A DNA stretch of 64,000 bases from Dyadobacter sp. 50-39 (GTDB taxonomy: Bacteria > Bacteroidota > Bacteroidia > Cytophagales > Spirosomataceae). Position 1 is the first letter of the stretch; every line of letters starts with the position of its first letter. The notes under the pieces are model-generated. The model saw only the letters and a list, made by a program, of their open reading frames with translations, did no database searches and had not been told where the DNA came from. Made by a program: the position numbers and the translations under genes. Location of the stretch: contig MKSR01000027.1 of the NCBI GenBank assembly GCA_001898145.1, positions 1 through 64,000 of the forward strand, written 5' to 3'. Positions 1,931 through 23,381 of the stretch are shown piece by piece.

Positions 1931-1957
1931 TGATTGTATCAATTAAACCAAGCAACA

Positions 1958-2689: not shown

Positions 2690-2718
2690 TTTTAAACTCT
2701 TCCATACCAAGCGACCGC

Positions 2719-2760
2719 TGGCTCAAGTTCCGCGGAATGCTGGCTCTGTTTCGCCGGAAT
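2719..2760 (-). repeat. IS21 right-end repeats
   Basis: Two inverted copies (2719-2738 and 2741-2760) match the left-end unit: on the minus strand they read ATTCCGG/CG...GAGCCA. They mark the right boundary of the element, immediately before the truncated outer-membrane gene. Confidence 0.8.
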
Positions 2761-2762
2761 TT

Positions 2763-3356: not shown

Positions 3357-3371
3357 GTTTGAAAGCTTAAA

Positions 3372-3690: not shown

Positions 3691-3696
3691 ACTGTT

Positions 3697-5219: not shown

Positions 5220-5242
5220 TTATGCATTCCCTTCGTAAAAAT

Positions 5243-7246: not shown

Positions 7247-7273
7247 AATTTAATATTTATACCATATTAATTA

Positions 7274-8155
7274 TTACATATCATCCATCATGGGCATTGG
7301 TTTTTTGTCTTTTTTCATCTTATCTGCACCCATCCCCATCATGTCCATACCTTTATCCATCATATCCATACCTTTATCCATCTCATCATCCATCATAGGC
7401 TTATCTGCTGGCCCCATAGCTTTGCCGGTCATATCCATGCCCATATCCATCATATCCATGCCTTTATCCATCATATCCATATCATCCGCCATGGGTTTAT
7501 TGGCCATGGTGCCGCTTACTTTTCCCATCATTTCTTTACCCATGGTAATCATGTCCATCCCTTTATTGATCATACCCATACCGGTTTGCATCATCGGCTT
7601 ATCCTTGTTTTTTTGTGCATGCTGGGTCATCATTTTGCCAGACTTTGCCACATCCAATCCCTGATGAATCATAATCATTCCGTTGTCGCTCATATCCATA
7701 TCTTTTCCTGCTGTCTTTTTTATGCTATCACCCATTGACATTTTATCATCCATGTCTTCATTGTCGTGTTCAGGATTATTTAAGGCACTTCGCCCGGCTT
7801 TTACCATTTCTATCCCTTTGTCCATTAGTGCTATCCCACTATTGGTCATTGTCCTGTCATTAGCTCTTTCTCCCTTATTTACCATATCGTTGCCGGCTTT
7901 TACCATTTCCATTCCTCTATAAATTGTATCCACACCTGTATCATCATCACTTCTCAGATTTGTTTGGGCAACAGAGTCTGTCATTTTAGCATTATCTGTG
8001 CTATCAGTACCATTGCAGCCGACAATGAAAGCAGAAGCAAATAAAATGATGAGAAAGCCAATCATTTTCGGCTTAGTTGTACTTTTATACCTTGTAAGAG
8101 GTTTGTTACCTGAAACCAAAGCTCTTTTAATAATATCCAAAACCGATATGTTCAT
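7274..8155 (-). CDS. Met-rich repeat lipoprotein, probable periplasmic metal binder
   Basis: After a basic N-terminus and hydrophobic stretch comes a lipobox (FIVGC-NGTDS, about residues 43-47), so the mature protein is probably a lipoprotein. The rest is dominated by a degenerate repeat built on MDKGMDMM, with spacing like DKPMMDDEMDKG. Met makes up a large share of the residues, accompanied by Asp, Lys and Gly. Met-rich segments bind Cu(I)/Ag(I) by thioether ligands in many copper proteins, so a copper buffer role is inferred. No conserved enzyme domain is seen. It sits immediately upstream of the electron-relay genes. A shorter start at an internal Met (about residue 31) is possible. Confidence 0.7.
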   Translation of the reverse strand: MNISVLDIIKRALVSGNKPLTRYKSTTKPKMIGFLIILFASAFIVGCNGTDSTDNAKMTDSVAQTNLRSDDDTGVDTIYRGMEMVKAGNDMVNKGERANDRTMTNSGIALMDKGIEMVKAGRSALNNPEHDNEDMDDKMSMGDSIKKTAGKDMDMSDNGMIMIHQGLDVAKSGKMMTQHAQKNKDKPMMQTGMGMINKGMDMITMGKEMMGKVSGTMANKPMADDMDMMDKGMDMMDMGMDMTGKAMGPADKPMMDDEMDKGMDMMDKGMDMMGMGADKMKKDKKPMPMMDDM

Positions 8156-8242
8156 AATGTTATGTTTTATTGATGATATTGCCTCTCTTTTGTATCTAAA
8201 ATGTTATCCCTCACTTCTATAAAGCAGGGATAACATAATCCG

Positions 8243-8701
8243 TCACTTCATTTTCATATCCTTGTGCTCGCTTTTCAGCTGAAGACAGTGCATAGCGCAG
8301 GCTCCATATTGCTTGTAATTTTCATGAACAAGAAGAACTGTTTTGCCATTTTTATCTTTGACTTCACAAATGCCATTCATGGGAATAGATACCGCTAAGC
8401 TATCAGCGGCTCCGTTTAGGACATGATAAAGGTATGTGCCATTTTTTGCAGCTTTGCCTAAGACTTTACCCGTGGCGGCATCAACAGCATTTCCCTGATC
8501 ATCGATGTGAGCAATTTTGGCTCCAGTAGCATCTTTGATTACCCCATCACTGGTGACCCAACCAATGTGCTTCCCTTTTGCATCAATAACCTTACCCTGT
8601 GCATCAATTGAGGGCTTTGGCTGTTTGTAATTTTGTGAATATACATTTCCAACTGCGAAAACAAGAAATGCCAAAAGGAAGATAAATTGTTGCTTTTTCA
8701 T
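8243..8701 (-). CDS. secreted small beta-repeat protein of the copper locus
   Basis: A 152-residue protein with a clear signal peptide (KKQQFIFLLAFLVFAVGNVYSQ) and several short repeats of the type xGKVxDAxGKxIGxVxxDG, suggesting a small all-beta fold resembling the Bacteroidota 'beta-flower' proteins. The C-terminus has CAMHCLQLKSEHKDMKMK, with Cys, His and Met that could bind metal. It is clearly related to the protein encoded at 34551-35096, which has the same repeat layout and an added CPMHP-type tail. The function is not known; periplasmic copper binding is an inference from content and location. Confidence 0.7.
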   Translation of the reverse strand: MKKQQFIFLLAFLVFAVGNVYSQNYKQPKPSIDAQGKVIDAKGKHIGWVTSDGVIKDATGAKIAHIDDQGNAVDAATGKVLGKAAKNGTYLYHVLNGAADSLAVSIPMNGICEVKDKNGKTVLLVHENYKQYGACAMHCLQLKSEHKDMKMK

Positions 8702-8724
8702 ATGATTACCGTTTTATATTTCAT

Positions 8725-8732
8725 CAAATTTA
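8725..8732 (-). promoter_or_regulatory. candidate Bacteroidota -7 box
   Basis: On the minus strand this reads TAAATTTG, a perfect TAnnTTTG, 23 bases before the ATG of the small beta-repeat protein at 8701. No strong -33 partner is seen. Confidence 0.4.
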
Positions 8733-8821
8733 ACTTTGTTAGCGGAGAGTAAACATGATGAGAGTCATGTATCCAAGTGTTTCCAGTCAGGTAAGATCGG
8801 TTTCAATTTTAGGTGGCCATT

Positions 8822-8851
8822 AAAAAAGGGTAACCACAATGATTACCCTTT
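8822..8851 (-). terminator. rho-independent terminator after the Csp-like gene
   Basis: A 9-bp perfect stem (AAAGGGTAA / TTACCCTTT) with a 9-base loop is followed on the minus strand by a T run. It lies just past the stop of the Cys-rich four-helix protein and closes the upstream copper transcription unit. Confidence 0.75.
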
Positions 8852-8878
8852 AATTATATCCTAACCCAGGATTCTCTA

Positions 8879-9223
8879 TCAAACTGGGGTTGCCATTTGT
8901 TCACACATCTGGGCACATCTACGGCAAGCTTCTGCGCACTCGCGGCAATGATCCATGCCCATTTCTGCGTGCTTTTCACATTCCTGTGCACATGCATTAC
9001 AAGCATCTGCACAAACACGGCACAGATGCGCGCTGAAACTGCTGCCAAGACTCATCACTTCGGCTGCACTCCGGCAAATGGCTGCGCACTCCAGGTCTAG
9101 CTGGATGCACTTTGCCATGTGTCCTACATGCTCTTCTTTTAAACACTCAGTTGCACAATGGCTGCAGGCAACTGCGCATGCCACACAAGCATCAATACAG
9201 TCTTTAAATTGTTGATGTGCCAT
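8879..9223 (-). CDS. four-helix-bundle Cys-rich copper-binding protein, Csp-like
   Basis: A 114-residue, all-helical, Cys-rich protein. The Cys residues recur in CxxxC/CxxC patterns on helices (DACVACAVACSHCATEC, CRVCADACNACAQEC, HCRECAEACRRCAQMC), together with several His and Met. This is the layout of copper storage proteins (DUF326/Csp), in which thiols pointing into the bundle hold many Cu(I) ions. No signal peptide is present, which points to a cytosolic form. It follows the DUF305 lipoprotein gene by 23 bases and ends at a strong terminator. Confidence 0.85.
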   Translation of the reverse strand: MAHQQFKDCIDACVACAVACSHCATECLKEEHVGHMAKCIQLDLECAAICRSAAEVMSLGSSFSAHLCRVCADACNACAQECEKHAEMGMDHCRECAEACRRCAQMCEQMATPV

Positions 9224-9246
9224 AATTTTAATGTTTGATGAAAAAA

Positions 9247-9870
9247 TTAATTATTTCTGTTAGCTAGTAAAAAAGCTTGAAAAGCTGCTATTTCTTTATT
9301 TTGCTCTTCAATAATCATGGTTGATAAGGTTTTTAGCTGAGCGCTTTTTCCCATCAACAATTGCATCTGGGCCATTTCTGTGGCACTTTGATGGTGCCCT
9401 ATCATCAATGTGGCAAAATCCTGATCGATGTTGCCGTTGATGATCTGAAGATCTGATTGTTTTTCCATACGCTCCATTCCTTCCATCATATTCATATGAA
9501 ACTCCATATTCATAGTTGTTGGCGTTGCACTTGCCAAAAATGAATCTAGAGTAGCGATCTCTTTTTGCTGAGCGTCTATAATTGCTTGGGCCATAGCTTT
9601 CATTTCAGTATTACTTCCTGATTGCAGCTCTACCTTGGCCATCTCAATAGCCCCCATATGGTGCATTTTCATCATAGTAGCATAATCTATATCAGGATCC
9701 TGGGTTACTTTCATCATGTCCATTTCGGCCATCATATCATGCATAACCGTCATCATCTGATTTTGGTCGTGTGCTTGAACCGTTATTTTATCATCGTCAT
9801 TATCGTCAGAACATGCAGTAGCCAAAGCCATTACGGCAGCAAGTCCTAACATCTTGTAGGTGGTATTCAT
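9247..9870 (-). CDS. DUF305 lipoprotein
   Basis: The protein begins with a lipoprotein signal (LGLAAVMALATAC) and has two DUF305-type halves. Each half has the MMxxHHxGAxEMAKxEL / MIGHHQSATEMAQMQL pattern, with Met and His pairs that could bind copper. DUF305 (ferritin-like four-helix) proteins commonly occur next to copper resistance genes. The protein is predicted to be periplasmic and lipid-anchored. It lies between the CopZ-like and Csp-like genes on the same strand. A hairpin separates it from the CopZ-like gene, so it may have its own promoter. Confidence 0.85.
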   Translation of the reverse strand: MNTTYKMLGLAAVMALATACSDDNDDDKITVQAHDQNQMMTVMHDMMAEMDMMKVTQDPDIDYATMMKMHHMGAIEMAKVELQSGSNTEMKAMAQAIIDAQQKEIATLDSFLASATPTTMNMEFHMNMMEGMERMEKQSDLQIINGNIDQDFATLMIGHHQSATEMAQMQLLMGKSAQLKTLSTMIIEEQNKEIAAFQAFLLANRNN

Positions 9871-9887
9871 GGGGTTGTCGTTTAATT

Positions 9888-9928
9888 AAAAAGATAAATC
9901 TGCCTGATAATCAAGCAAATTTATCTTT
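9888..9928 (-). terminator. hairpin between the CopZ-like and DUF305 genes
   Basis: A perfect 10-bp inverted repeat, AAAGATAAAT / ATTTATCTTT, with a 19-base loop is followed on the minus strand by T-rich sequence. It lies 52 bases past the stop of the CopZ-like gene. Because the stem is AT-rich it might instead be a regulatory dyad. Confidence 0.5.
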
Positions 9929-9979
9929 AAAAAACTATGCCACTAAGATGGATCTAAACAACACTAGAAGTGAGCTTAA

Positions 9980-10186
9980 CTAAACCTTCTCTATGGTAAA
10001 GCCCGCCCCCTTTACTGCTGAGATAATATTGTCCTGATTTCCGTCAACGGTTACAGTCAAAATCTTTTCTGGATTATTGATATCTACTTCCCAGTTACCT
10101 GTCCCTGCGCTTTCGTTTAAGCCAGGTGTAACTTGTGCCACACATCCACCGCATTTAATATTGGTTTTAAATTTTAGAGTTTCCAT
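9980..10186 (-). CDS. CopZ-like heavy-metal-associated (HMA) chaperone
   Basis: A 68-residue single HMA domain with the metal-binding CxxC in NIKCGGCVAQV and the usual beta-alpha-beta-beta-alpha-beta length. It lacks a signal peptide, so it should shuttle Cu(I) in the cytosol to the P-type ATPase encoded just upstream (the 3' part of copA ends 56 bases away). Because copA is interrupted by a transposon, its normal partner may be missing in this strain unless CopB substitutes. Confidence 0.8.
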   Translation of the reverse strand: METLKFKTNIKCGGCVAQVTPGLNESAGTGNWEVDINNPEKILTVTVDGNQDNIISAVKGAGFTIEKV

Positions 10187-10242
10187 TGATTTGTTTATTT
10201 GAAATTGTAGGTAATTGTACTTTTGAACCTTGCTTGTAACTA

Positions 10243-12214
10243 TTAAATCTTTGCTGTCTTTAACCTCAAACTATTGCTTACAACTGATACTGAGCTCAGT
10301 GCCATTGCCGCTCCCGCGATCATTGGATCCAGTAAGAAGCCGTTAAAAGGGTACAACAACCCTGCTGCGAGAGGTATACCGATCAGGTTGTAGATAAAAG
10401 CCCAAAACAGGTTCTGCTTTATGGTCTTGACCGTTTTAGCCGAGAGTTTTAACGCTTTGGGCACCATGTTCAAATCAGAAGTAATCAGGGTCATTTTTGC
10501 GACGTCCATGGCAATGTCTGATCCTTTACCCATCGCAATGCTTACATCGGCCTGCGCCAAGGCATGACTGTCATTGATCCCGTCCCCAACCATGGCCACA
10601 ATTTTTCCTTCTGCTTGCAGCTGTTTTACAAAGTCTGCTTTTTGTGAAGGCATCACATCTGCTTGATAGTGTTTTAAACCAACCTGCTCTGCTACCGCAG
10701 CTGCCGTTTCTTTATTGTCACCTGTAAGCATATAAACCTGGATTCCCCGGCTTTGCAGCGTCTGGATGGCCTGGCGGGAAGTAAGTTTGATTTTATCGGC
10801 AATGGCAATAATGGCCAGCACCTGCCGGGAGTTTGCGAAGAAAATCACTGTTTTGGCCTGCTGCTGCCATCCTTGTGCTTCAAGGGAAAGCCCATTGTTT
10901 ATGCTGATCGTATTGAGCTCCATGAGTTTGCGGTTGCCAATGAAATACTGGTTCCCTTCATAAAATGAGCTTACCCCCAAACCGGTTATACTTTCAAATT
11001 TATCCAGACGAACGGCCAGGGCACTTTCTTCTTTGAAACTAGTAACCACCGCTTCTGCCAATGGGTGCTCAGATTGAGCTTCCATAGTGCGCAAGATTTG
11101 CTTGTATAACCTTTGATCTTCGTTATTTACAATCCAGGAAATGTCTGTGACAACGGGTTTGCCCTCAGTAATCGTGCCTGTTTTATCCAGGATAACGGCA
11201 TTTACTTTATGGCCTAATTCAAGGCTTTCGGCATCTTTAATCAGGATGTTATTTTCTGCACCTTTTCCAATACCTACCATGATTGCCGTAGGGGTTGCAA
11301 GCCCAAGTGCGCAAGGGCACGCGATGACCAGCACCGTTACAGAAGTGAGTAGCGCGTGTGTAAAAGCGTTTTCTGATCCAACCAGCATCCAGGTTAGAAA
11401 TGTCAGCGCAGCAATGCCGATCACGACTGGCACAAAAATACCGGCTATCTTGTCTACGAGCTTCTGAACAGGCGCTTTACTTCCCTGGGCTTCTTGCACC
11501 ATTCTGATGATTTGGGCAAGGATAGTATCGCCTCCTACTTTTTGAGCTTTAAATTGAAAGCTACCCTTCTGATTGATTGTCCCTGCAAAGACTTGTTCTC
11601 CCTGGCTTTTTTCGACAGGCACAGGCTCCCCGCTGATCATGCTTTCATCCACAAATGAGCTTCCATCTGTCAGAACACCGTCAACCGGGATTTTTTCACC
11701 AGGTCTAACCAGTAAGATATCATCAGCTTTTACTGCCGCTATTGGTATTTCCTGCTCTACACCATTGACAATAGCCCTGACAGTTTTAGGCTGCAAGCCT
11801 ATCAATTTTTTGATAGCAGACGAAGTATTAGACTTTGCCTTTTCTTCCAAGAGTTTGCCCAGGGAGATAAATGCAATAACAACAGCTGCCGCTTCATAGT
11901 ATACGTGAGCATGCAAGCCCCTGTTATGCCAGAATTCGGGATATATGGTATTAAAGGCACTAAAAACAAATGCAATCCCGGTACTTAGCGCCACCAGGGT
12001 ATCCATGTTGGCTTTACCATATTTTGCCTGTTTAAGTGCATTAATAAAAAAGCCACGCCCCAGGTAAAATACAACGGGCGCTGACAATGCCATCATGATC
12101 CAATTTCCATAAGGGACTTTGTCCATAAAAAACATCCCAATGATTACAATTGGAAAAGAAAGAATGGCTGCCCAGATTGTACGTTCCTTTAACTGCTCAT
12201 ATTGTTTTAACTGT
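10243..12214 (-). pseudogene. copA: 3' fragment of the copper-exporting P1B-1 ATPase copA, split by the Tn3-family transposon
   Basis: The frame is open from the transposon end and encodes the last two thirds of a Cu(I) ATPase. It contains GEKIPVDG, a TGE-like [24 protein letters not shown], an HP (SEHPLA), [13 protein letters not shown] and the C-terminal signature [15 protein letters not shown]. The missing 5' part lies at 20994-20697. Joining the two through one copy of the ACTGT duplication gives an uninterrupted ...[18 protein letters not shown]..., so one gene was split. The first usable ATG of this fragment is at 12135, which would drop most of the first transmembrane helix. Activity is doubtful. 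Confidence 0.9.
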
Positions 12215-12252
12215 GGGGTTCCAATAGTTTTTGGACGAAATGTATCGGTAAG
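12215..12252 (+). repeat. left 38-bp terminal inverted repeat of the Tn3-family transposon
   Basis: The repeat begins GGGGTTCCAATAG and ends with GTATCGGTAAG. It matches the inverted right end (20659-20696) at 36 of 38 positions by eye. Length 38 and the GGGG start are typical of the Tn3 family. It is preceded by ACTGT (12210-12214). Confidence 0.95.
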
Positions 12253-12330
12253 AGATTTCCAAGTGATGAGCTACTCTTTGGCTAACCTGGATGTGTTTTC
12301 CTATTAATGGTATTTTTTCCTATCAGTGAA

Positions 12331-12687
12331 TCAACTATTAAAGGATAATCTATTTCCAAAAGGGTCAATTACATCCATACATAAAGTTTTTGAACTCCAA
12401 GGTGTTTTGCCCAAGCCTGGTCTATTGAATTTGTATGGTTTAGCTAATAGTTGTTTGTGGTAATCTCTAAGATTTTCAAACTTATCAATGTAAGCTCTTG
12501 CGCCCGGTGAACAGTCGCCATGATGTTCTGTCAAATGAAGAATAATGCTGTCAAGTGAGATTTGCATATAAATAGGGGCATTGTCCGGCTTATCTTCCCA
12601 GTCAATTTTAAAGCCCAGTCATCCTATATAAAATTCAACTGCCTTGTTATAATCGAAAATTCTAAAAATAGGTGTTATTGTGGCCAT
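12331..12687 (-). pseudogene. glyoxalase-superfamily (bleomycin-resistance-like) gene with an in-frame stop
   Basis: Read from the ATG at 12687, the product starts MATITPIFRIFDYNKAVEFY and continues IG-stop-LGFKIDWEDKP to SSKTLCMDVIDPFGNRLSF. This is the short glyoxalase/VOC fold with its C-terminal metal-ligand region. The TGA at 12621-12619 replaces what is almost certainly a Trp or similar codon (FYIGxLGF). The rest of the frame is intact, so a single point mutation disabled it, or the codon is read through. It lies just inside the left end of the transposon and has no evident link to mercury. Confidence 0.75.
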
Positions 12688-12787
12688 GATTGATCTTTAA
12701 AAATGATTGCGCCTGGTATAAGGATTTGTTAAAATTAATTAATGAGGTTCGCTATATCGAGTTGAAATGGAAATAAAGCGAAAAACA

Positions 12788-12829
12788 TATTTAAGTATTT
12801 GCTTAAATAAGAAATAACTATTACACTTG
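12788..12829 (+). promoter_or_regulatory. promoter and ArsR-type operator of the mercury operon
   Basis: The dyad ATTTAAGTATTTGCTTAAAT (12789-12808) overlaps a TTTG -33 box (12798-12801). After 20 bases comes TACACTTG (12822-12829), one mismatch from TAnnTTTG. The regulator ATG is at 12834, so the transcript would be nearly leaderless. A 19-base core (12788-12806) is identical to the sequence upstream of the second ArsR-MerTP cluster. Confidence 0.7.
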
Positions 12830-12833
12830 TGCT

Positions 12834-13214
12834 ATGGAAAGTAATGATACATGTATACGGGTACTGGCAGACCCTAATCAGATAAAAGAGTGTAAACAAC
12901 TATTGCAAGCGAACCAGGTCATTTTTACCGGATTAAGCAATATCCTGGCGCTTGCTGGAAATGAAGTAAGATTAAAAATACTTTTCCTTTTAGAGGAAGA
13001 AGGAGAGCTGTGCCCTTGTGACCTGGCTGATATTCTAAGCATGAGCATTCCGGCCATTTCACAACATTTGCGAAAAATGAAAGACGGTAGAATTATTAAA
13101 GCCCGTAAGGTAGCTCAAACGATATTCTACTCTATTGAGCCTAAGCATTTGGAATTATTAAAGCCTTTATTTTCACATATAACAGAGTCAAGCAAAAAAG
13201 CAGAACAGATATGA
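12834..13214 (+). CDS. ArsR/SmtB-family metal-sensing repressor of the mercury operon
   Basis: A 126-residue winged-helix regulator. The metal-site motif ELCPCDLADILSMS sits at the start of the recognition region, as in the ELCVCDL motif of ArsR/CadC proteins. It is followed by the HTH (IPAISQHLRKMKDGRIIKARK) and wing. A Cys near the N-terminus (DTCIRVL) may be an extra ligand. It is the first gene of a mer operon and overlaps merTP by ATGA. It takes the place usually held by MerR in proteobacterial mer operons. It is a close relative of the regulator at 38656-39039. Confidence 0.9.
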   Translation: MESNDTCIRVLADPNQIKECKQLLQANQVIFTGLSNILALAGNEVRLKILFLLEEEGELCPCDLADILSMSIPAISQHLRKMKDGRIIKARKVAQTIFYSIEPKHLELLKPLFSHITESSKKAEQI

Positions 13215-13828
13215 AAACAGAGAAATCAGGATTAATGGGAGCGGGATTGTTATCGGCTGTAGCAGCATCGCTTTGTTGTATAACCCCTATTTTAGCCCTT
13301 GTTACAGGAGCTTCCGGGGTAGCTTCTACCTTCTCCTGGATGGAGCCTTTCAGACCTGTATTAATTGCCCTAACCCTGGCCGTGCTTGCTTTTGCATGGT
13401 ACCGGAAATTGAAGCCTAAACCAATAAACGCCGTAGATTGTGCCTGTGAGGATGAAAAAAAACCTCCCTTCTTACAGTCTAAAAAGTTTCTTGGTATTGT
13501 TACGCTCTTTGCGGTGGCCATGCTTGCTTTTCCTTATTATGGCCATGTTTTCTATCCTTCCAAGGAGGTTCCGCAGGTGAGCACTTCGACTAATATAGTC
13601 CCCAAGAATTTTCAGCAAGTAAGTTTCAAAGTAAGGGGTATGACCTGCCAAAGTTGTGGAGAGCATATCGAGCATAGTGTTAATCAGCTGCCTGGGATAA
13701 ATCACGTAAACGCTGATTTTAAAGAAGGTACCACCGCTGTCCAATTTGACCCTGCTAAGACCAATAAAGAGCAGCTGGTACAGGCAATTAATTCGACAGG
13801 GTATAAGGTACAAACTGAAATTAAATAA
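13211..13828 (+). CDS. merTP: mercuric ion transporter MerTP (MerT membrane part fused to MerP-like HMA domain)
   Basis: The N-terminal half has three hydrophobic helices. The first carries the vicinal Cys pair of MerT (AASLCCITPILA), and a cytoplasmic loop carries another pair (DCACEDEKK). After the third helix comes an HMA domain (about 135-205) with GMTCQSCGEHIEH. Hg(II) would be bound by the HMA part outside, passed to the helix-1 Cys pair and delivered to the cytosolic reductase. The start overlaps the regulator stop by ATGA. A very similar fused protein is encoded at 39040-39651. Confidence 0.9.
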   Translation: MKTEKSGLMGAGLLSAVAASLCCITPILALVTGASGVASTFSWMEPFRPVLIALTLAVLAFAWYRKLKPKPINAVDCACEDEKKPPFLQSKKFLGIVTLFAVAMLAFPYYGHVFYPSKEVPQVSTSTNIVPKNFQQVSFKVRGMTCQSCGEHIEHSVNQLPGINHVNADFKEGTTAVQFDPAKTNKEQLVQAINSTGYKVQTEIK

Positions 13829-13843
13829 CTCTAAAAACGAAAA

Positions 13844-14181
13844 GTGATGATAAGTAAAGCAGTTTTAATAACGGTTGTTTCCGGATTATTCTTTGCCACC
13901 TCTCAAATGTGCGGTTGTGGATCATGTGAAGCAAAGGCATCAGAGACCCATGCCGATGTTCGTAAAACAGAAGTATTAGGGTTAAAGCTAACAGGTATAA
14001 CTTGCGCAGGCTGCACAAGTCACGTATCCAAAGCTTTAAAAAGTCAACTGGGCGTACTGGAACAAACGGTGGAGTATCCGGGAGATATAGCTGTAGTAAA
14101 GTATGACCCGGAAAAAACGAGCCCGGAGCAAATTATAAGTCGATAGAAAAGGCAGGCTATAAAGCTGTAACAGTTAAATAA
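13844..14181 (+). pseudogene. secreted MerP-like HMA protein with a 3' frameshift
   Basis: The protein has a signal sequence, a Cys cluster (MCGCGSCEA) and an HMA domain with GITCAGCTSHVSKAL. The zero frame ends at TAG 14144-14146 after EQIISR. Shifting by one base at the A-rich spot near 14131-14136 restores the expected HMA C-terminus, SIEKAGYKAVTVK, and a TAA at 14179-14181. One base is therefore missing, by mutation or sequencing error. The truncated product keeps the CxxC but lacks the last strand. It sits between merTP and merA. Confidence 0.75.
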
Positions 14182-14200
14182 ATCATCTTGAACTCCGATT

Positions 14201-15859
14201 ATGGAAAATAGAAAGATAGAAGTCGATATCACAGGTATGACCTGCAGGCATTGTGCTGTAAGTATCGAGAGCCTTTTGAAAAATAAGGAAGGAATAACGA
14301 TTGCCTCGGTAAACCACGAGTCCGGAAAAGGAGAAATTACCTTTGATGGGCAAATGACAACCGATGAAGACATTATCAGTACGATTAACAGTACGAAAAA
14401 GTATCAGGCTCGTGGTACAAGCTCGGTTCTTAATGCTCCTGCAGAACCTACCTTTTATGACCTGATCATTATAGGAGGTGGTTCATCAGCTTTCTCGGCT
14501 GCAATTACAGCCCATGAGCTTGGTTTATCAATTTTAATGGTAAACGCAGGATTGGCATTTGGTGGAACCTGTGTAAATGTGGGTTGCGTACCGTCTAAAT
14601 TTCTTATTCGGGCGGGAGAAACGGCTTATCATGCTTCTCATTCCAACTTTGAGGGAATCAGTCCTTACGGAGCAAGCATTGATTTTGCTAAAGTTATTCA
14701 AGAGAAAACGGAAATGGTATCCAGGATGCAGCAAAAGAAATACATGGATATCGTCAAAGACTTTGATAATTTCCGGATGGTCGAAGGATGGGCAGAATTC
14801 CTGGACACCAAAACCATTATCGTAAATGGAGAGACGAAATATTCAGCACTGAAATTTATCATTGCCACCGGCGCCACTACCAATATACCGAATATTGAAG
14901 GATTGCGGGAAGTAGGCTATTTGACGAATGTCACCTTGTTTGACCTGGAAGAAAAGCCTGAAAGCTTAACTATCATGGGTGCGGGTTATATCGGTCTTGA
15001 AATTGCGATGGCTTATTCCCGGCTGGGAGTAAAGGTTCGAATCATCGAATTTACAGATAGAGTCCTACGCTCCCAAGCTCCTGATATTAGCCAGGAACTT
15101 CAAAAGCAGATGCATCTTGAGGGTATTGCGGTTCTACCAAACGTTAGAGCGCAAAAATTCGAAAAACAGGGATCTTCAACCTTAATTCATTGTAAAGACC
15201 CGGATGGAAAAGAAATTACCCTGGTTGAACCTGGCCATATTGTAGTTTCAACCGGTATCCGACCAAATATAAGCAAGTTAGGCTTAGATAGAATTGGCTT
15301 AGAAACCACTAAGAACGGACATATTGCAGTTAATGAGTTGATGGAAACCAATGTCGCTAATATTTATGCTGTGGGGGATGTAATTAATACTCCCGCATAT
15401 GTTTATACAGCAGCAGCAGAGGGCAAGATGGCTGTAGAAAATGCTTTTAAAGGTGCAGGAAGCAAGACCGACTATTCTTCCTTACCCTGGGTAGTATTTA
15501 CCGACCCCCAAGTTGCAGGTGTTGGCCTTGATGAAGTGGAAGCAGCGGCACTGGGGCTCCCTTTTGAAGTAAGTAAGATGCCACTAACGGAGGTTCCAAG
15601 AAGTCAGGCCGCCAAAGATACACGGGGTTTTATAAAACTTATCAGGAACAAAGAAACAGATACACTGATCGGGGCACGGGTGGTAGCTCCCGAAGGCGGT
15701 GAGCTGATCATGGAGCTTACTTTAGCGGTCAAATACGGTATCACGGTCAACGATCTGGCGAAAACCTTTCACCCTTATTTAACCCTTAGCGAGGGAATCA
15801 AACTTGCAGCTATCGCTTTTGGAAAAGATATTGCAACCCTTAGTTGCTGTGCTAGCTAA
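14201..15859 (+). CDS. merA: mercuric reductase MerA
   Basis: This flavoenzyme reduces Hg(II) to volatile Hg(0) with NADPH in the cytosol. It has an N-terminal HMA domain (GMTCRHCAVSIESLL, residues ~10-60), an FAD-binding GGGSSAFSAA motif, the redox disulfide GGTCVNVGCVPSK and an NADPH-binding GAGYIGLEIA. The dimerisation domain has LPWVVFTDPQVAGVG, and the C-terminal vicinal Cys pair LSCCAS receives Hg in the partner active site. All key residues are present and length is normal for a one-HMA MerA. It is the main detoxification enzyme of the transposon. Confidence 0.97.
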   Translation: MENRKIEVDITGMTCRHCAVSIESLLKNKEGITIASVNHESGKGEITFDGQMTTDEDIISTINSTKKYQARGTSSVLNAPAEPTFYDLIIIGGGSSAFSAAITAHELGLSILMVNAGLAFGGTCVNVGCVPSKFLIRAGETAYHASHSNFEGISPYGASIDFAKVIQEKTEMVSRMQQKKYMDIVKDFDNFRMVEGWAEFLDTKTIIVNGETKYSALKFIIATGATTNIPNIEGLREVGYLTNVTLFDLEEKPESLTIMGAGYIGLEIAMAYSRLGVKVRIIEFTDRVLRSQAPDISQELQKQMHLEGIAVLPNVRAQKFEKQGSSTLIHCKDPDGKEITLVEPGHIVVSTGIRPNISKLGLDRIGLETTKNGHIAVNELMETNVANIYAVGDVINTPAYVYTAAAEGKMAVENAFKGAGSKTDYSSLPWVVFTDPQVAGVGLDEVEAAALGLPFEVSKMPLTEVPRSQAAKDTRGFIKLIRNKETDTLIGARVVAPEGGELIMELTLAVKYGITVNDLAKTFHPYLTLSEGIKLAAIAFGKDIATLSCCAS

Positions 15860-15902
15860 ATATTATTTGCAGACCACCCCCTATAGCTGTTAAACTTGCC
15901 TT

Positions 15903-16307
15903 ATGGACATGCTACCTAAAGACTTAACACGAGACGTTAAAAATAGACTGAACACAATTAAAGGACAGGTGGAAGGCATTGTCAAAATGCTGGACGAGGG
16001 TAAAGACCCCCAGCAAATCTTAAATCAATTTAAAGCAGTTACGAAAGCCCTTGAAACAGCCCAAACTCTTCTTGTAGATGAAACCTTTCGAAAATCATTA
16101 GCTTCTAAGATTTCTGAAGTGAGACAGGCCTGCCCCGGTAATTGTGGTCAGGAGCAAACGATAGAATCTTTGAGAGTTCAGTTTCCGACACTAGCTGAAG
16201 AGGAACTAACCCAAAAGATGAGGGAAATTCAATCTGCTTACGAGCTGATGAATAAATTCAAAAAAGATTTGGAGACCTCCCCGGGTACCAACCGACCTTT
16301 GATGTAG
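15903..16307 (+). CDS. DUF156/CsoR-family regulator variant with CPGNC motif
   Basis: This helical 134-residue protein matches the CsoR/FrmR core (RLNTIKGQVEGIVKML and AVTKALETAQTLLVDE). The Cys and the His/Cys pair expected for Cu(I) in CsoR are not at the usual places (KDPQQIL and DETFRKSL are found instead). A Cys pair occurs further on (ACPGNCGQE), followed by an unusual ~45-residue helical extension. The protein at 44752-45114 shares all of this. It follows merA by 43 bases and is followed at 15 bases by a thioredoxin-like gene. Hg sensing through CPGNC is an inference. Confidence 0.8.
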   Translation: MDMLPKDLTRDVKNRLNTIKGQVEGIVKMLDEGKDPQQILNQFKAVTKALETAQTLLVDETFRKSLASKISEVRQACPGNCGQEQTIESLRVQFPTLAEEELTQKMREIQSAYELMNKFKKDLETSPGTNRPLM

Positions 16308-16322
16308 ATATTTAAATGCATT

Positions 16323-16592
16323 ATGAAAAGAAAGATAGAAGTATTTACAGCAGGTTGCCCGGTTTGCAAGCCGGTAGTAGAATTGGTTCAGTCGATGGCT
16401 TGCAGTAATTGCGAGGTAGAAGTATATGATTTATCCAGGCAGACAGACCCGGAATTTTATACAGACAAGTTAAAGCAATATAAGGTAACTGTGCTTCCAA
16501 CCGTTATTGTGAATGGTGAGAAGCTAGATATAGCTGAAGGCGGAATTACCAGGGAGCAATTAAGCCAGGCAGGAGTAGGACAATCAATATAA
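16323..16592 (+). CDS. thioredoxin/glutaredoxin-like small thiol protein
   Basis: An 89-residue thioredoxin-fold protein. Its redox motif is AGCPVCKPVVELV, a second Cys pair follows (MACSNCEVEVYDL), and the cis-Pro region is VTVLPTVIVNG. No signal peptide is present. The four Cys would suit thiol exchange or Hg handling in the cytosol. It is adjacent to a DUF156 regulator here and in the second cluster (44399-44683), where the same proteins occur in the same order. This suggests a functional pair. Confidence 0.8.
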   Translation: MKRKIEVFTAGCPVCKPVVELVQSMACSNCEVEVYDLSRQTDPEFYTDKLKQYKVTVLPTVIVNGEKLDIAEGGITREQLSQAGVGQSI

Positions 16593-16598
16593 ATACAT

Positions 16599-16850
16599 AT
16601 GAAAAGAAAAGTTTTAGGATTAGTAACCGCTGTAATGTTTTTTACAGCAGGTTCAATGTATGCTTTTAGCCCCTTACAGGATAAATGCCCGGACAAAGGA
16701 ACAGCTAAGTGTAAGCTGGTAAAGAACTGCCCGGATAAGGGTACTTCGAAGTGTAAGCTTGTAGATCAGAAGAAAGTAACTCTTCCTTCTTGCTGTCAAA
16801 AATCCCAAGAGACAGCTTCCGTTAAAAAAGCTTCTTCAAAGCTTAAATAA
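16599..16850 (+). CDS. small secreted Cys-rich repeat protein
   Basis: An 83-residue protein with a signal peptide (VLGLVTAVMFFTAGSMYA). After it come two copies of CPDKGTxKCKLV and a CC pair (LPSCCQKS). The family is not recognised. The paired Cys and the position as last gene of the mer operon, six bases after the thioredoxin-like gene and before a terminator, suggest a periplasmic metal binder. It has no counterpart in the second mercury-type cluster. Confidence 0.65.
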   Translation: MKRKVLGLVTAVMFFTAGSMYAFSPLQDKCPDKGTAKCKLVKNCPDKGTSKCKLVDQKKVTLPSCCQKSQETASVKKASSKLK

Positions 16851-16874
16851 GGGAGGCAAAACCCTTTTGAGATA

Positions 16875-16908
16875 TAGCCCGGAAAAAACTTTTTTCGGGC
16901 TATTTTCA
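16875..16908 (+). terminator. rho-independent terminator of the mer operon
   Basis: A long GC-then-A stem (TAGCCCGgAAAAAA / TTTTTTCGGGCTA) is followed by ATTTTC. It lies 25 bases after the last mer gene and separates the cargo from the transposition genes. Confidence 0.85.
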
Positions 16909-16984
16909 TCATCAGTTGATGAGAGTAAAACGGTCGTTAAAGTATACCTATAGAAGGGAACCGGAAATTTTCAATAAAACCCTT

Positions 16985-17078
16985 TGAAAGGCAAAATTTA
17001 AAAGAATCGGCTCTTCTTCGTAAGTATAAAATATTAGTATATTTAATTAATATACCGTTAAGACGTTTTATTAAACTT
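16985..17078 (+). promoter_or_regulatory. putative res site and tnpR-tnpA promoter
   Basis: This AT-rich region directly before the resolvase contains the near-perfect dyad GTATATTTAATTAATATAC (17037-17055), with further partial copies around it. Tn3-family res sites lie at this position and bind resolvase dimers at imperfect dyads. Exact subsites were not resolved. Confidence 0.5.
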
Positions 17079-17681
17079 ATGATGATCGGCTATGCCCGGG
17101 TTTCGACCCAAGACCAGAACCTAGACCTCCAGCTCGATGCCCTCAAAAAAGCAGGTTGCGAAAAGATTTATCAGGAGCAGTTGAGTGCATCAATTGAAGA
17201 ACGCCCCAAATTATCAGAAATGGTTTCCAACTTAAGAAAGGGGGATACTGTTGTCGTATGGAAACTTGACCGTTTGGCCAGATCCCTAAAACACTTGCTT
17301 ACGTTGGTATCGGATTTCAAAATAGCAGGCATAGGATTTCTTAGCCTTCAAGACCAGATCAATACCACTACAGCCCAAGGCCGTTTGATTTTTAATATGT
17401 TCGCTTCGCTTTCTGAATTTGAAAGAGAAATAATCAAAGAACGGACGCTTGCCGGACTAGCGGCAGCACGGAACCGTGGAAGGGTCGGTGGCAGAAAGAA
17501 AGGCCTGACCAAAGAGGCAAAGGTAAAAGCAGCTGCCGTAAAGCATTTGTACCTCGATGAAAAAAAATCCATAAATGAAATTTGTGAGGCAGTAAGCATC
17601 AGCAGGGCCACGGTTTACCACTACCTTGATTATTTAAACGTAGACCGGGCCGTCAGAAAGCCCAAGGCAAAACAAGAATAA
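17079..17681 (+). CDS. tnpR: Tn3-family serine resolvase TnpR
   Basis: This serine recombinase resolves cointegrates at res. The catalytic Ser is in IGYARVSTQDQNLDLQ, followed by the conserved KAGCEKI, VVWKLDRLARS and EREIIKERTLAGLAAARNRGR motifs. The C-terminal HTH is SINEICEAVSISRATVYHY. Two ATG codons are adjacent at the start (17079 and 17082). At 200 residues it is complete. It precedes tnpA by 15 bases on the same strand. A related lone resolvase is encoded at 51728-52357. Confidence 0.93.
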   Translation: MMIGYARVSTQDQNLDLQLDALKKAGCEKIYQEQLSASIEERPKLSEMVSNLRKGDTVVVWKLDRLARSLKHLLTLVSDFKIAGIGFLSLQDQINTTTAQGRLIFNMFASLSEFEREIIKERTLAGLAAARNRGRVGGRKKGLTKEAKVKAAAVKHLYLDEKKSINEICEAVSISRATVYHYLDYLNVDRAVRKPKAKQE

Positions 17682-17696
17682 TTAATCAATGATCCT

Positions 17697-20663
17697 ATGG
17701 CCGGCCAGTTCCTTACACATACAGAAAGAGAACGCTATGAGTACGTGCCTTCTTCCATTTCTCCGGAAGATCTGAACCGGTACTTTTATTTATCAGATAG
17801 CGATATTGCCTTAATCAAAGAACAGCGGGGAAATGAACAAAGGCTGGGCTTCGCTTGTCAGCTCTGTCTGATCCGCTTTATGGGCTTCCTTATTGATGAG
17901 TGGGAAAAGAGTATACCTAAACTTGTTTTGGAATGTTTGTCCGGACAACTTCAGGCCCTGCCATCAGACCTGAAAAACTATAGTGCCAGGCGTAACACCC
18001 GTGCAGATCACCTCCAATCTATATTAAAACACCTCCATTTTTCAAGATTTGCGCCCATGGATGCCGTTCAGCTGGAGGCCTGGCTTCTGGAACGTTCGCT
18101 GGAACATGATAAGCCGACCCTGCTTTTGGATCTGGCCTGCGAGAAGCTTATCCAAAACCGGATATTGAGGCCTGCGATCGGAACCCTTGAAAGAATGGTG
18201 GTCTCGGTACGTGCCCAGGCATATACCGAAACTTACAGGAGGCTATCCTTAATTTTAAACAATGAACTTAAAATACGGCTAGATGCCTTGCTCATTGTTG
18301 AAGAGGGAAATACTTTTACCCGTTTTGGCTGGCTAAAAGAATCTCCTAGTTCCAATACACCGTCTACCTTAAACAATGCGTTGACGAAATATCAGTACCT
18401 TATTGATATCGGTATAACAGAATGGGATTTAACGGTACTAAACCCCAATCGTAAAAAGTTTCTTTCCCAAAAAGCCCGCAGGTCTACCAATCAGGAAATC
18501 CAGCGGATGAACCCTGAAAAAAGGTATCCGATACTTATTGCATTTCTTGCCCAGAACCTCATCGACGTTACAGATTCGGTTTTAGATATGTTTGAAGCCT
18601 ATCTCAATGACGTTTTTCATAAATGCAGAAGGTCACTTGAAATCTATCAACAAGAGACCGTGAACGCCAAAGACAATGCGATGGCTACCCTAAGCTTCGT
18701 AGCGACAATGGTTGCCGACGAAAAAATCCCTCCGGAACAAATCAGGACAAAAGTATTTAGCAATATCTCAAAAACCGAGCTGAACGAAGCAATCTCGGTT
18801 ACCAAAGAAATTTTAAAACCTGCCAGGAACAATTTCCTGTCCTTTCTAGACAACCACTTCAATCGGCTCCGGCAGTTCAGCGGCAATTTCCTTAAAACGC
18901 TGACTTTCTTTTCTGGAATCCAGGACGATAACTTCTTGTATGCTATTGAGATTGTATTAGGGCTTCAGAACGGTTCCCGTAAGAAAATCCCTGATGACGC
19001 CCCCTTAGATTTCATAACCCCCACGTGGTCAAAATATGTTTTTAACGAGGAAGGAGAAGGAATCAAACAATCATACGAATGGTGCGTGCTTTTTAAGCTA
19101 AAAGACAAACTCAACTCGGGCGACATCTTTGTTGCCAATTCCCGCAGGTATGCTGATCTTGATGGGTACCTGATCCCAAAAGAACAATGGAAAATCAAGA
19201 AAGAGGAGATCTGCAGCCAGCTTTATATTTCACCAGATGCGTTGACGCATATAAACGGTAAAATCAAAGAACTCGAAGATTTGCTGCCTTTGGTAAATGA
19301 CCTGTTGGTCGGAACCGATGAAGTACGCCTGGAAGATGGGATATTGGTAGTCCCCCGGTTGCAGGCACAGGAACTTCCGGATTCCGTATATGAACTTGAA
19401 AACGCTATTTCTTCCCGTTTGCCACTTGTAGACCTTCCAGAGATTTTGATGGAAGTCAATTCATGGACAAATTTTACAAATCACCTTACTTCGATACATG
19501 ATGGAAAGTGTCCGGAAACTGGTCAGATCCACCGTGTTTATGCCTCGCTTTTAAGCAATGCCTGTAACATACCTTGGGTGGATATGGCCCGGAGTGCCAA
19601 CATCGAATACTATGATCTGTTATGGTCGATCCGAAGTTATCATAGAGAAGACACGTTAAAGCTTGCCAATAACCATTTAGTGAACTATCACCACAAACAA
19701 TGGCTTTCTAATCTTTGGGGAGGCGGTACCCTTTCTTCTTCAGATGGACAGCGTTTCCCGGTAAGCGGTAAAATAAGAAATGCAAAAGCCCAACTGAAAT
19801 ATTTTGGGTATGGCAAGGGGGTCACGTTTTATACGCACACCGCTGACCAATACTCCCAGTTCGGAAGTAAAGTTATCGCCTCGACTGAAAGAGATGCTAT
19901 GTATGTACTGGATGAAATCCTAAATAATGAAACTGAACTAAATATTTTGGAGCATACTACAGATACATCCGGCTATACAGACTTGGTATTTGGGTTGTTC
20001 GATTTATTGGGAATGCAGTTTTCACCCAGGCTAAGGGATATCAAAGATCAAAAACTTTCTAAGATCAAAGGCAAGGATTTCGAATATCCCTCCTTGAAAT
20101 TTACCGGTGTCATAAATCCAGATTATATCGCAGGCAGATGGGACGACTTATTGAGATTGGCCGGTTCGATGAAATCGGGATATGTTACCTCTTCATTGTT
20201 TATTGGCAAGCTGCAGTCTTATCCAAGGCAAAACAATTTAACGTATGTCCTGCAGGAATACGGCAGGCTTATTAAAACTATTTTCATTCTGAAATATCTG
20301 TTAAGCCAGACGTTGAGGCGAAAAATCAACACGCAACTGAATAAAGGCGAAGCACTTCATTCTCTCCGGAATTTCCTCTGGTTTGGAGGGGACGGCAAAA
20401 TTAGGAAGAAACAAGAAGAACAACAGCAAGAACAGGCGTTATGCTTGAATGTAGCAACCAATAGTGTTATACTTTGGAATACAATTTACATGCAGGAGGT
20501 CTTGAATGAATTACGGAAAGAAGGGTATATTGTAAACCAAGATGATATCGTTCATTTGTCCCCAGCAAGGTTCTCTCATATCAACAGGCTAGGAAAATAC
20601 TTCTTTGATTTTGATGAAAATGGGTTGAATGGGAACTTAAGGCAATTAAGGGTAAATGCTTAG
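17697..20663 (+). CDS. tnpA: Tn3-family transposase TnpA
   Basis: A 988-residue DDE transposase of normal family length. The N-terminal DUF4158-type region (FLTHTERERYEYVP, LGFACQLCLIRFMGFL) is followed by the conserved C-terminal catalytic block (HTTDTSGYTDLVFG, FSPRLRDIKDQKL, SQTLRRKINTQLNKGEALHSLR, and near the end NEGYI-like VLNELRKEGY). The stop codon (20661-20663) lies inside the right terminal repeat. No frameshift is seen, so the transposon is probably competent to move. Confidence 0.95.
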   Translation: MAGQFLTHTERERYEYVPSSISPEDLNRYFYLSDSDIALIKEQRGNEQRLGFACQLCLIRFMGFLIDEWEKSIPKLVLECLSGQLQALPSDLKNYSARRNTRADHLQSILKHLHFSRFAPMDAVQLEAWLLERSLEHDKPTLLLDLACEKLIQNRILRPAIGTLERMVVSVRAQAYTETYRRLSLILNNELKIRLDALLIVEEGNTFTRFGWLKESPSSNTPSTLNNALTKYQYLIDIGITEWDLTVLNPNRKKFLSQKARRSTNQEIQRMNPEKRYPILIAFLAQNLIDVTDSVLDMFEAYLNDVFHKCRRSLEIYQQETVNAKDNAMATLSFVATMVADEKIPPEQIRTKVFSNISKTELNEAISVTKEILKPARNNFLSFLDNHFNRLRQFSGNFLKTLTFFSGIQDDNFLYAIEIVLGLQNGSRKKIPDDAPLDFITPTWSKYVFNEEGEGIKQSYEWCVLFKLKDKLNSGDIFVANSRRYADLDGYLIPKEQWKIKKEEICSQLYISPDALTHINGKIKELEDLLPLVNDLLVGTDEVRLEDGILVVPRLQAQELPDSVYELENAISSRLPLVDLPEILMEVNSWTNFTNHLTSIHDGKCPETGQIHRVYASLLSNACNIPWVDMARSANIEYYDLLWSIRSYHREDTLKLANNHLVNYHHKQWLSNLWGGGTLSSSDGQRFPVSGKIRNAKAQLKYFGYGKGVTFYTHTADQYSQFGSKVIASTERDAMYVLDEILNNETELNILEHTTDTSGYTDLVFGLFDLLGMQFSPRLRDIKDQKLSKIKGKDFEYPSLKFTGVINPDYIAGRWDDLLRLAGSMKSGYVTSSLFIGKLQSYPRQNNLTYVLQEYGRLIKTIFILKYLLSQTLRRKINTQLNKGEALHSLRNFLWFGGDGKIRKKQEEQQQEQALCLNVATNSVILWNTIYMQEVLNELRKEGYIVNQDDIVHLSPARFSHINRLGKYFFDFDENGLNGNLRQLRVNA

Positions 20664-20696
20664 CGATACATTTCGTCCAAATACTATTGGAACCCC
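20659..20696 (-). repeat. right 38-bp terminal inverted repeat of the Tn3-family transposon
   Basis: On the minus strand it begins GGGGTTCCAATAG and ends with GTATCGCTAAG, matching the left end at 36 of 38 bases. It is followed by the ACTGT duplication (20697-20701). Confidence 0.95.
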
Positions 20697-20994
20697 ACTG
20701 TGCCTGCTGCTGCTCCTGTTGCGGATCGTCAGAATCAACAATCAGATCATAGCCCACAGAGCGGATTAAATTCTGTAAGTCGACTGGTTTAACGGTCTGC
20801 TCATATTCAGCCCAAGCTGTTTGATTGGCATAGTTTACGCCGGCATCGTGGACACCTTTTGCTGATTTAAGTATGCTTTCCACGCTTACCGCACAGGCTG
20901 CACAGGTCATGCCCAAGACTGGGAAAGTCTTCTTAATATATTTATTTTTTGATTCCTTTTTAGCGATTACTTTATCTGAAACGAGTGCTTCCAT
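20697..20994 (-). pseudogene. copA: 5' fragment of copA encoding the N-terminal HMA domain
   Basis: The ATG at 20994 opens a frame encoding a basic leader and one HMA domain (PVLGMTCAACAVSVESILKS) up to ...DDPQQEQQQAQ. There the transposon interrupts it. Read onward, the frame runs about 38 foreign residues into the antisense of tnpA and stops at 20581. The remaining ATPase lies at 12214-10243. A stray soluble HMA fragment may be produced. The native promoter (21013-21020) stays with this piece, so the 3' piece has lost it. Confidence 0.93.
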
Positions 20995-21311: not shown

Positions 21312-23381
21312 TTAATTTACCCTGAGCAGCTTTGCATTAATGGCAACAACAATGGTGGAAGCGCTCATAAGAACTGCACCCATCGCCGGGCTCAGCATAA
21401 AAGTAGGGTACAGAACGCCGGCCGCTAATGGAATCGCTATCACATTATAACCTATGGCCCAGGCCAGGTTTTGCACCATTTTTCGGTATGTAGCCCTGCC
21501 GAATGTGATCATTTGCACCACATCCATCGGGTCACTGTTTACCAGGATGATATCGGCTGTCTCAGCTGCTACATCAGTCCCGGAACCGACCGCAATGCCT
21601 ACGTCTGCCTGAGCGAGTGCGGGCGCGTCATTTACCCCGTCGCCCGTCATAGCGACAATCTCTCCTTTATTTTGGAACTCCTTGACTTTGTCCTGCTTTT
21701 CATGGGGAAGCACATTAGCCAGGTATCCATCCATATTGAGCTTTGTACTGACGGCTTCTGCTATATTATCATTGTCCCCTGTCAATAAGAATGATTTGAT
21801 GTTCATCTTTTTCAATTCCGCAATAGCCTGGGCTGCATTCTCCCGAATGCTGTCAGCAAAGGTGATTAAGCCCACCAGCTTGCCGTCAACAAGTATAAAG
21901 TTCACCGTGTCGGTGGCCTGATCAACCTGGTCGGGAATAATAGGCACCGGTTTGTTTTCTTGCTTGAAATAATTTGGTCCGGCTGCTACCACTTTCTTGC
22001 CATCTACGATACCGGTTACACCAATGCCTTGCATATAATTGAAATCAGTTGACTTCCAGAGCTGCAAGCCTTGTTCTTTTAATTTTCTGATGACACCGTG
22101 TGCAATATGATGCTCCGAGTTTTGTTGTACTGCGGCAGCAAACTGCAAAATCTGGTCTGATGATAACTGATCGTCAATAGGTATAATCTGTTGTACTTCA
22201 TGAGAGCCTTTGGTCAGCGTGCCGGTTTTATCGAAAATGATGGTAGTCAAATTACGGGCATTTTCAAAGGCGGTACGGTTCCGGATTAAAAGCCCATGCG
22301 TTGCCGAAAGCGTTGTTGAAATAGCAATGACCAGGGGAATAGCGACCCCAAGCGCATGCGGGCAAGATGTTACCATCACCGTAACCATTCTCTCCAGGGC
22401 AAATGCCAGATCTTGGCCACCCGTATACCAGACAATGAAAGTCACTACCCCAACCGTAATTGAAATCAGCGTCAGCCAACCGGCCACCTTATCTGCCAGA
22501 TTCTGTGTATTTGATTTAGCGCCTTGGGCAGTCTTGACCATATTGATAACCTTACTGAGATAACTCTCATCGCCTGCGCCGGTAACCTGGACTTTTAAAA
22601 CACCATCGCCGTTGATGGCCCCGCCAATTACTTTATCGTCTTTCTGCTTTTGGACGGGCACGCTTTCGCCGGTAAGCATGCTTTCGTTGACGTAAGAATT
22701 GCCTTCCAGTATCAAACCATCTGCTGGAACCTTCTCTCCGGGTTTAACCAGCAATCTATCACCTGTACGAAGGTCTTTTAAGGGAATATCCGTTACCTGA
22801 TTATCCTTTTCTACATGAACCATCGATGGAAGTAGGGCAACCAGGGATTCCAAGGCTTGTGAGGCAGCCATCTGCGATTTCATTTCCAGCCAATGCCCGA
22901 TGAGCATAATATCAATCAAAGTGGCAAGCTCCCAAAAGAAGTCCATACCTTCAAGCCCAAACACCACGGCAACACTGTATATATAGGCCGTCGTGATAGC
23001 AACTGCCACCAGGGTCATCATCCCCAGGGTCTTGCTTTTCAGCTCTCTGACAAGGCCCGTAAGAAACGGCCAGCCCCCATAAAAGTAGATGATCGTACTT
23101 AGTGCTAAAAGCACATATTGGTCTCCTGCAAACGTCCAGTTAAATCCTGCCCACTGCTGGATCATGTGTGATAGCAAAAGGATCGGCACGGTAATGACAA
23201 GACAAATCCAGAAGCGCCTAAGAAAATCTTCGGTGTGATGTCCTGCATGCTTGTCATGTCCACTATGCTCATCAGCCTGCGCAGTGGGTGCGTGGTGCTC
23301 ATGAGAAGATCCAGTCATAGAAGGCATGCTTTCCGCTGGCTTTTTGGGATGATGCTCGTCGTGGTGGTGGTGATTTTCCAT
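21312..23381 (-). CDS. copB: CopB-type (P1B-3) copper/silver-translocating ATPase
   Basis: A 689-residue P-type ATPase with a His-rich cytosolic N-terminus (ENHHHHDEHHPKK, further His/Asp clusters to about residue 50) in place of HMA domains. It carries the CPH variant of the membrane metal motif (TSCPHALGVAIPL), which marks the CopB subgroup. Also present are LTGES, DKTGTLTKG, SEHHIA, MTGDGVNDAPALAQADVG and the C-terminal helices. It exports Cu or Ag ions from the cytosol using ATP. It is intact and may partly cover for the disrupted copA next to it. The oxidase-barrel gene precedes it in the operon. Confidence 0.92.
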   Translation of the reverse strand: MENHHHHDEHHPKKPAESMPSMTGSSHEHHAPTAQADEHSGHDKHAGHHTEDFLRRFWICLVITVPILLLSHMIQQWAGFNWTFAGDQYVLLALSTIIYFYGGWPFLTGLVRELKSKTLGMMTLVAVAITTAYIYSVAVVFGLEGMDFFWELATLIDIMLIGHWLEMKSQMAASQALESLVALLPSMVHVEKDNQVTDIPLKDLRTGDRLLVKPGEKVPADGLILEGNSYVNESMLTGESVPVQKQKDDKVIGGAINGDGVLKVQVTGAGDESYLSKVINMVKTAQGAKSNTQNLADKVAGWLTLISITVGVVTFIVWYTGGQDLAFALERMVTVMVTSCPHALGVAIPLVIAISTTLSATHGLLIRNRTAFENARNLTTIIFDKTGTLTKGSHEVQQIIPIDDQLSSDQILQFAAAVQQNSEHHIAHGVIRKLKEQGLQLWKSTDFNYMQGIGVTGIVDGKKVVAAGPNYFKQENKPVPIIPDQVDQATDTVNFILVDGKLVGLITFADSIRENAAQAIAELKKMNIKSFLLTGDNDNIAEAVSTKLNMDGYLANVLPHEKQDKVKEFQNKGEIVAMTGDGVNDAPALAQADVGIAVGSGTDVAAETADIILVNSDPMDVVQMITFGRATYRKMVQNLAWAIGYNVIAIPLAAGVLYPTFMLSPAMGAVLMSASTIVVAINAKLLRVN

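Follow-up and report, generated by a model that had tools for sequence, protein, structure and literature searches.

A Tn3-family mercury transposon splits a copA-type gene in Dyadobacter sp. 50-39, whose genome holds a second, intact CopA

Introduction

Transposons of the Tn3 family typically end in terminal inverted repeats of about 38 bp that begin with GGGG. The solved transposase of one such element, Tn4430 (7QD4), is homologous along its length to the transposase (TnpA) of the element described here, but the two elements are distant from one another, and Tn4430 also differs in host and cargo. The nearest full-length TnpA found is that of an element on plasmid pA27BH1 of Pedobacter sp. 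ANT_H27B (NZ_MN657144.1), which is 71.9% identical over its full length. The pA27BH1 element has 38-bp ends of the same type, ATATA on both sides, a resolvase adjoining TnpA and metal-resistance cargo. Unlike the present element, it is approximately 14.6 kb long, genes annotated within it encode, among others, chromate resistance and an ABC transporter, and it occupies a plasmid site with no copA in the stretch shown. Mercury resistance (mer) operons in which an ArsR-type regulator replaces MerR and is accompanied by MerA are already known from Bacteroidetes (Boyd and Barkay 2012; PMC3466566). The present cluster is borne on a Tn3 element, and the CsoR-like, thioredoxin-like and Cys-rich genes that follow merA may set it apart from those operons.

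The DNA analysed here, referred to as the window, is a stretch of 64,000 nucleotides from Dyadobacter sp. 50-39 (contig MKSR01000027.1, positions 1 to 64,000). It contains a mercury transposon lying inside a copA-type gene for a P1B ATPase. Very probably, judging from the sequences compared below, a Tn3-family mer element recently inserted into an accessory copA and inactivated that copy, so that Hg(II) resistance would have been gained at little copper cost. An interrupted copA need not equal lost copper export, given the intact CopA that remains in the genome. The element adds a Bacteroidota lineage to the Tn3 family whose members carry differing metal cargoes, mercury resistance here and chromate resistance on pA27BH1. 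This lineage is undescribed as far as a limited literature search goes: no description of the element or of a comparable copA interruption was found in the titles and abstract openings covered.

The insertion and its empty site

The insertion and the copper genes that surround it comprise the following features.

10243..12214, minus strand: C part of copA, P1B core with CPC and DKTGT, left of the element
12210..12214: target-site duplication ACTGT, left copy
12215..20696, plus strand: Tn3-family mercury transposon, whole (8,482 bp; 41.5% GC vs 44.8% for the window)
12215..12252, plus strand: left terminal inverted repeat, 38 bp (36/38 vs the right end)
20659..20696, minus strand: right terminal inverted repeat, 38 bp (36/38 vs the left end)
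20697..20701: target-site duplication ACTGT, right copy
20698..20994, minus strand: N part of copA, 99 codons, HMA domain, right of the element
21312..23381, minus strand: intact copB-like P1B ATPase gene adjoining copA, matching full-length profiles

The inverted repeats read GGGG...TAAG and are equal at 36/38 positions. This 36 is also the top 38-mer match between the 150-bp end pieces, whereas shuffled pieces (n = 40) gave at most 23. The original prediction of a structurally complete mercury transposon of the Tn3 family was borne out, as ends, duplication, TnpA, resolvase and mer genes were all found; the 36/38 match of the 38-bp ends and the exact ACTGT duplication were recovered as claimed. 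The predicted span of 12210..20701 had the right location but counted both ACTGT copies, and the element proper runs from 12215 to 20696. With a Tn3-type DDE transposase, GGGG ends of about 38 bp and a 5-bp target duplication, it is an additional member of the already known Tn3 family, and it also carries a resolvase gene. The full-length element is single-copy in the host genome (7.72 Mb) and was found in none of the 47 other genus genomes in a search of 48 genomes including its own, in which six candidates per genome were scored. The longer matches (>300 bases) in those 47 genomes were 65-70% identical.

The prediction that a copA-type gene has been split, with the P1B core and the HMA part on either side of the element, likewise held. 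The C part scores 608.7 bits against TIGR01511 (cut-off 397). The insertion point lies between the HMA domain and the membrane core; in the window the HMA domain is off the core's polypeptide, and in relatives it is continuous with the core. The N part ends ...QQQAQ, with the Q of the duplicated ACTGT stretch common to both parts, and its open reading frame extends to 20581, adding 38 residues from the end of the element. The frames of the two halves agree, and removal of the element rejoins them in frame, as had been proposed.

Comparison with related genomes gave the uninterrupted counterpart. In 12/12 relatives' loci examined (L017-L028), the sequences matching the two flanks adjoin with exactly the 5-base overlap of an empty site. 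These 12 come from 29 aligned relatives' loci, the other 17 being more diverged from the copA of the window, and in 11 of the 12 the junction was placed by gap-free extrapolation over at most 34 bases at one or both ends. At locus L021 (genome G022), the alignments reach within one base of the junction, and this locus, with CCAGT at the site, is the closest to the predicted empty site. In all six copA-nearest relatives the N and C parts form one gene in one frame, and the order copB-copA is retained. The insertion is real and clean.

Genes carried by the transposon

The element carries the following genes.

12334..12687, minus strand: glyoxalase-superfamily (PF19581) passenger pseudogene with an in-frame stop (post-stop piece E 5.1e-26)
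12834..13214, plus strand: ArsR/SmtB-family regulator at the head of the mer cluster (profile match)
13211..13828, plus strand: MerTP fusion, mercuric transport (NF033556, 267.7 bits vs cut-off 180)
13844..14146, plus strand: MerP-like HMA protein with an early frame end; the HMA reading continues in another frame
14201..15859, plus strand: MerA mercuric reductase with an N-terminal HMA domain (TIGR02053, 501.2 bits vs cut-off 454.45)
15903..16307, plus strand: CsoR/FrmR-type metal-sensing repressor (profile match)
16323..16592, plus strand: thioredoxin-like protein (PF13192)
16599..16850, plus strand: small Cys-rich repeat protein (open reading frame; no match in Pfam)
17079..17681, plus strand: TnpR serine resolvase (profile match)
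17697..20663, plus strand: TnpA, Tn3-family transposase, 988 aa (PF01526, NF033527)

TnpA covers PF01526 completely (1-389/389) and scores 869.8 bits against NF033527 (cut-off 500). Its residues 10-986 align with the Tn4430 transposase, and the two share acidic residues within the motifs SSSDG, TDT.GYTD and LNKGEA, which we take to be catalytic. MerA and MerTP exceed their NCBIfam equivalog cut-offs, and the mer regulator is of the ArsR/SmtB family rather than of the classical MerR type. The cargo is not fully intact, since the reading frame of the MerP-like gene is broken close to its end. The glyoxalase-superfamily pseudogene is oriented toward the C part of copA.

Related elements and transfer

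Apart from pA27BH1, a close sequence is a remnant in Pedobacter antarcticus ATCC 51969 (NZ_FONS01000014.1), in which 965 bp of the right end, including the end repeat, are 100% identical to the element. Unlike the element, the remnant has neither the left part nor any identical mer cargo, keeps only the last third of tnpA and has other flanks. The same contig holds an ArsR-MerTP stretch of 73% identity about 25 kb from the remnant. P. antarcticus would lie outside the order of the host: its RpoB is 72.9% identical to that of the host, as against 79.6-82.0% for members of the same order (n = 3), 84.6-86.5% for the same family (n = 2) and 97.0-97.7% for the same genus (n = 2). An identical stretch of 965 bp in so distant a Pedobacter therefore points to recent transfer of this stretch across that distance.

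TnpA of the element's type is uncommon. A TnpA search of genome contigs gave nine loci. Eight of them are 28-65% identical (best segment), which leaves the P. antarcticus fragment as the sole near match. Matches with E <= 1e-100 occurred in 4/395 genomes of the class and 20/222 genomes of the family, the host's own being included in both and two and three candidates per genome, respectively, being scored. The best full-length non-self TnpA in these two sets is about 51% identical. No relative of TnpA was found in viral contigs. Megablast of the element and of window positions 1-12209 and 20702-45000 against plasmids gave a single match, between the query 1-12209 and 132 bases of a Persicobacter plasmid.

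More distant Tn3 TnpA genes with similar neighbours are present within the genus. Those of genomes G001, G007 and G022 resemble that of the element in being close to ArsR and MerTP genes; they differ in that this TnpA is only 49-50% identical to that of the element and the resolvase about 34%. Among six genus relatives chosen for having matches to the element, four (L097, L111, L112 and L113) have ArsR-MerTP near a more distant Tn3 TnpA, although at L113 the TnpA runs into the contig end. L098 has TnpA with no mer matches in the stretch, and L114 has mer genes with no TnpA. The proximity of mer genes and a Tn3 transposase thus recurs in the genus.

On the G007 contig (19.9 kb), a Tn3 TnpA with resolvase, ArsR and MerTP is present in two copies that share one orientation and are separated by about 14.2 kb (L111, 64-3030 and 14303-17269). 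This arrangement resembles a tandem duplication, a cointegrate or the overlap of a circular assembly.

Function of the split gene and copper export

A replicative Tn3-family transposon with a Bacteroidota-type mer cluster would recently have entered an accessory copA within a copper-resistance island, moving by means of TnpA and TnpR through formation of a cointegrate and its subsequent resolution. With its HMA domain, and probably its promoter, severed from a core that has no usual start before the first helix, this copA copy would have been inactivated by the insertion. The strain would acquire ArsR-controlled uptake and reduction of Hg(II) at little cost, since the other CopA would keep exporting Cu(I), beside copB and a Cus pump.

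The most serious alternative is that the split gene works as two pieces, a soluble HMA copper chaperone and an HMA-less pump that is started inside the core. We consider this unlikely. It gains some plausibility from the position of the break between HMA and core, and most CopA1-type ATPases are described as not requiring their N-terminal metal sites (PMC8475189). The C part is also possibly transcribed from the element, in which a -7-type motif, TAAGTTTG, lies at 12484 on the minus strand and is directed at it, and no terminator-like site was found within 12100-12900. Three minus-strand sigma-70-like matches lie near TAAGTTTG, and both strands together give 5 vs 3.3 +/- 1.8 expected. However, the Bacteroidota promoter pattern has two parts, and its upstream part was not found at TAAGTTTG. 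It was equally missing at the native start, where another -7-type motif, TAACTTTG, which we take to be of the Bacteroidota type, begins 26 bases 5' of the ATG of copA and has remained on the N-part side; motifs of the -7 type occur in the window at 0.41 per kb and strand. The original prediction that the native copA promoter remains with the N part only is weakly supported by this lone -7 motif.

The reading frame of the C part also argues against two working pieces. No ATG, GTG or TTG is found in this frame from the element's last stop up to 12135, and the first, at 12135, falls within the first helix predicted by a simple hydropathy scan. The C-part product would therefore be without part of this helix, unless another start is used; unusual starts or readthrough may yield a near-complete ATPase core.

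Neither part of copA shows clear coding decay, which is consistent with a recent insertion. For the C part, dN/dS against six relatives is 0.07-0.08, compared with 0.06-0.10 for whole intact genes (six pairs). N-part values span 0.053-0.139, compared with 0.042-0.128 when intact N parts are paired with each other (14 pairs, not counting an identical one), and two of the six window values (0.129 and 0.139) are slightly over the intact range. The lack of clear relaxation would suit two functioning pieces, but a young insertion explains it equally; low dN/dS is as compatible with a product still in use as with recency and does not prove continued function.

The inactivation of an accessory copy at little copper cost leans on the second CopA, which was found by searching the host's own genome with the C part of copA. 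It lies on another contig (C24), is 742 aa long in a frame of 744 codons and is 66% identical over the part compared. It is intact, with HMA, E1-E2 and hydrolase domains and the CPC and DKTGT motifs, and its gene is near phosphofructokinase-like and TonB-receptor-like genes (names by sequence reading). In a tree of 32 rows, which took in only part of the genus CopA matches, this protein falls in a 14-row clade with 97/100 support, apart from the window copy. The latter groups with G001, G010, G009 and G027, then with G022 and G007 (98/99). All six copA-nearest relatives hold both kinds of CopA, the second kind having 63-67% identity with the query. Of 37 genus genomes (own included), 31 have a match at 63-70%, the range of the second CopA, although two of these have it only in pieces; the remaining six have a match of 75-80% instead.

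The insertion had been predicted to cost the strain its main Cu(I) exporter, copper tolerance being traded for mercury tolerance. The gene is indeed split with its promoter-like -7 motif kept by the N fragment, and induction could be stronger for the island copy than for the other. Nevertheless, loss of a "main exporter" is unsupported because the genome has an intact second CopA; its separate clade, the full-length profile matches of copB and the presence of both CopA kinds in the six nearest relatives weigh in the same direction. We regard such a trade-off as improbable, and the picture of a host deprived of its main copper exporter was rejected on the second CopA. Compensation by copB, also proposed, is possible, but the second CopA is the nearer backup.

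Slightly less credible again is a further scenario, in which the copA promoter would drive a 137-residue soluble HMA protein (99 CopA and 38 element residues) that buffers copper or ferries it to the second CopA, while a copper-induced antisense transcript into tnpA would link transposon activity to copper. Finally, the host assembly is a 48-contig draft, but the exact 5-bp duplication flanking matched 38-bp ends and the in-frame empty site in relatives make a mis-assembly that fused two regions very unlikely indeed, and an assembly artefact was ruled out on this evidence.

Contig setting and other metal loci

The contig that carries the island (C27, 120,985 bp) has ParA-like, Toprim-like and MobA/VirD2-type relaxase genes near its far end (L088, 6461-14167, at about 108-116 kb). 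This suggests that the metal island is on a mobilizable replicon or an integrated element, to judge by gene content; the far end also has ordinary-looking genes.

A second mercury/heavy-metal cluster is present in the window at 38656-39651 (plus strand) and 41958-45150 (minus strand). It comprises ArsR, a MerTP fusion and a heavy-metal P1B ATPase with two HMA matches, and the adjacent CsoR-like and thioredoxin-like genes are about 51% identical to those of the transposon. A multicopper oxidase at 23530-26166 (minus strand) contains a long repeated Met/His-rich insert (MDKMDHSKMNM), and its alignment to relatives varies from 878 to 943 columns (five loci).

The two-gene CusA/CzcA pump

The CusA/CzcA heavy-metal RND pump in the window is encoded by two genes, at 30584-32518 and 32515-33828 (both minus strand), that overlap as ATGA. 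The N gene covers TIGR00914 1-429, with about four predicted helices, and the C gene covers 419-1037; the break is read at the TM4-TM5 loop. A strain-specific frameshift in cusA was considered and rejected, as the same two-gene form is present in 5/5 island relatives. No literature on a split RND permease was found in a limited search. The split form is conserved over many Bacteroidia families and may deserve a study of its own.

Within the genus, the split-pump lineage is present in 9/48 genomes (own included) at 88-100% identity, with open frames of 649-655 aa. Among 395 class genomes, 55 have a match with E <= 1e-150, a threshold biased towards the split-pump lineage, with three candidates per genome scored. 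The 64 matches listed include 56 with open frames of 631-728 aa and eight with frames longer than 900 aa. When 39 pump loci were examined (own included; loci from L126-L169), 33 were split, three were fused and three were without an N match. In 28 of the split loci the genes are -23 to +71 bases apart, and in the other five the N stop lies 251-755 bases upstream.
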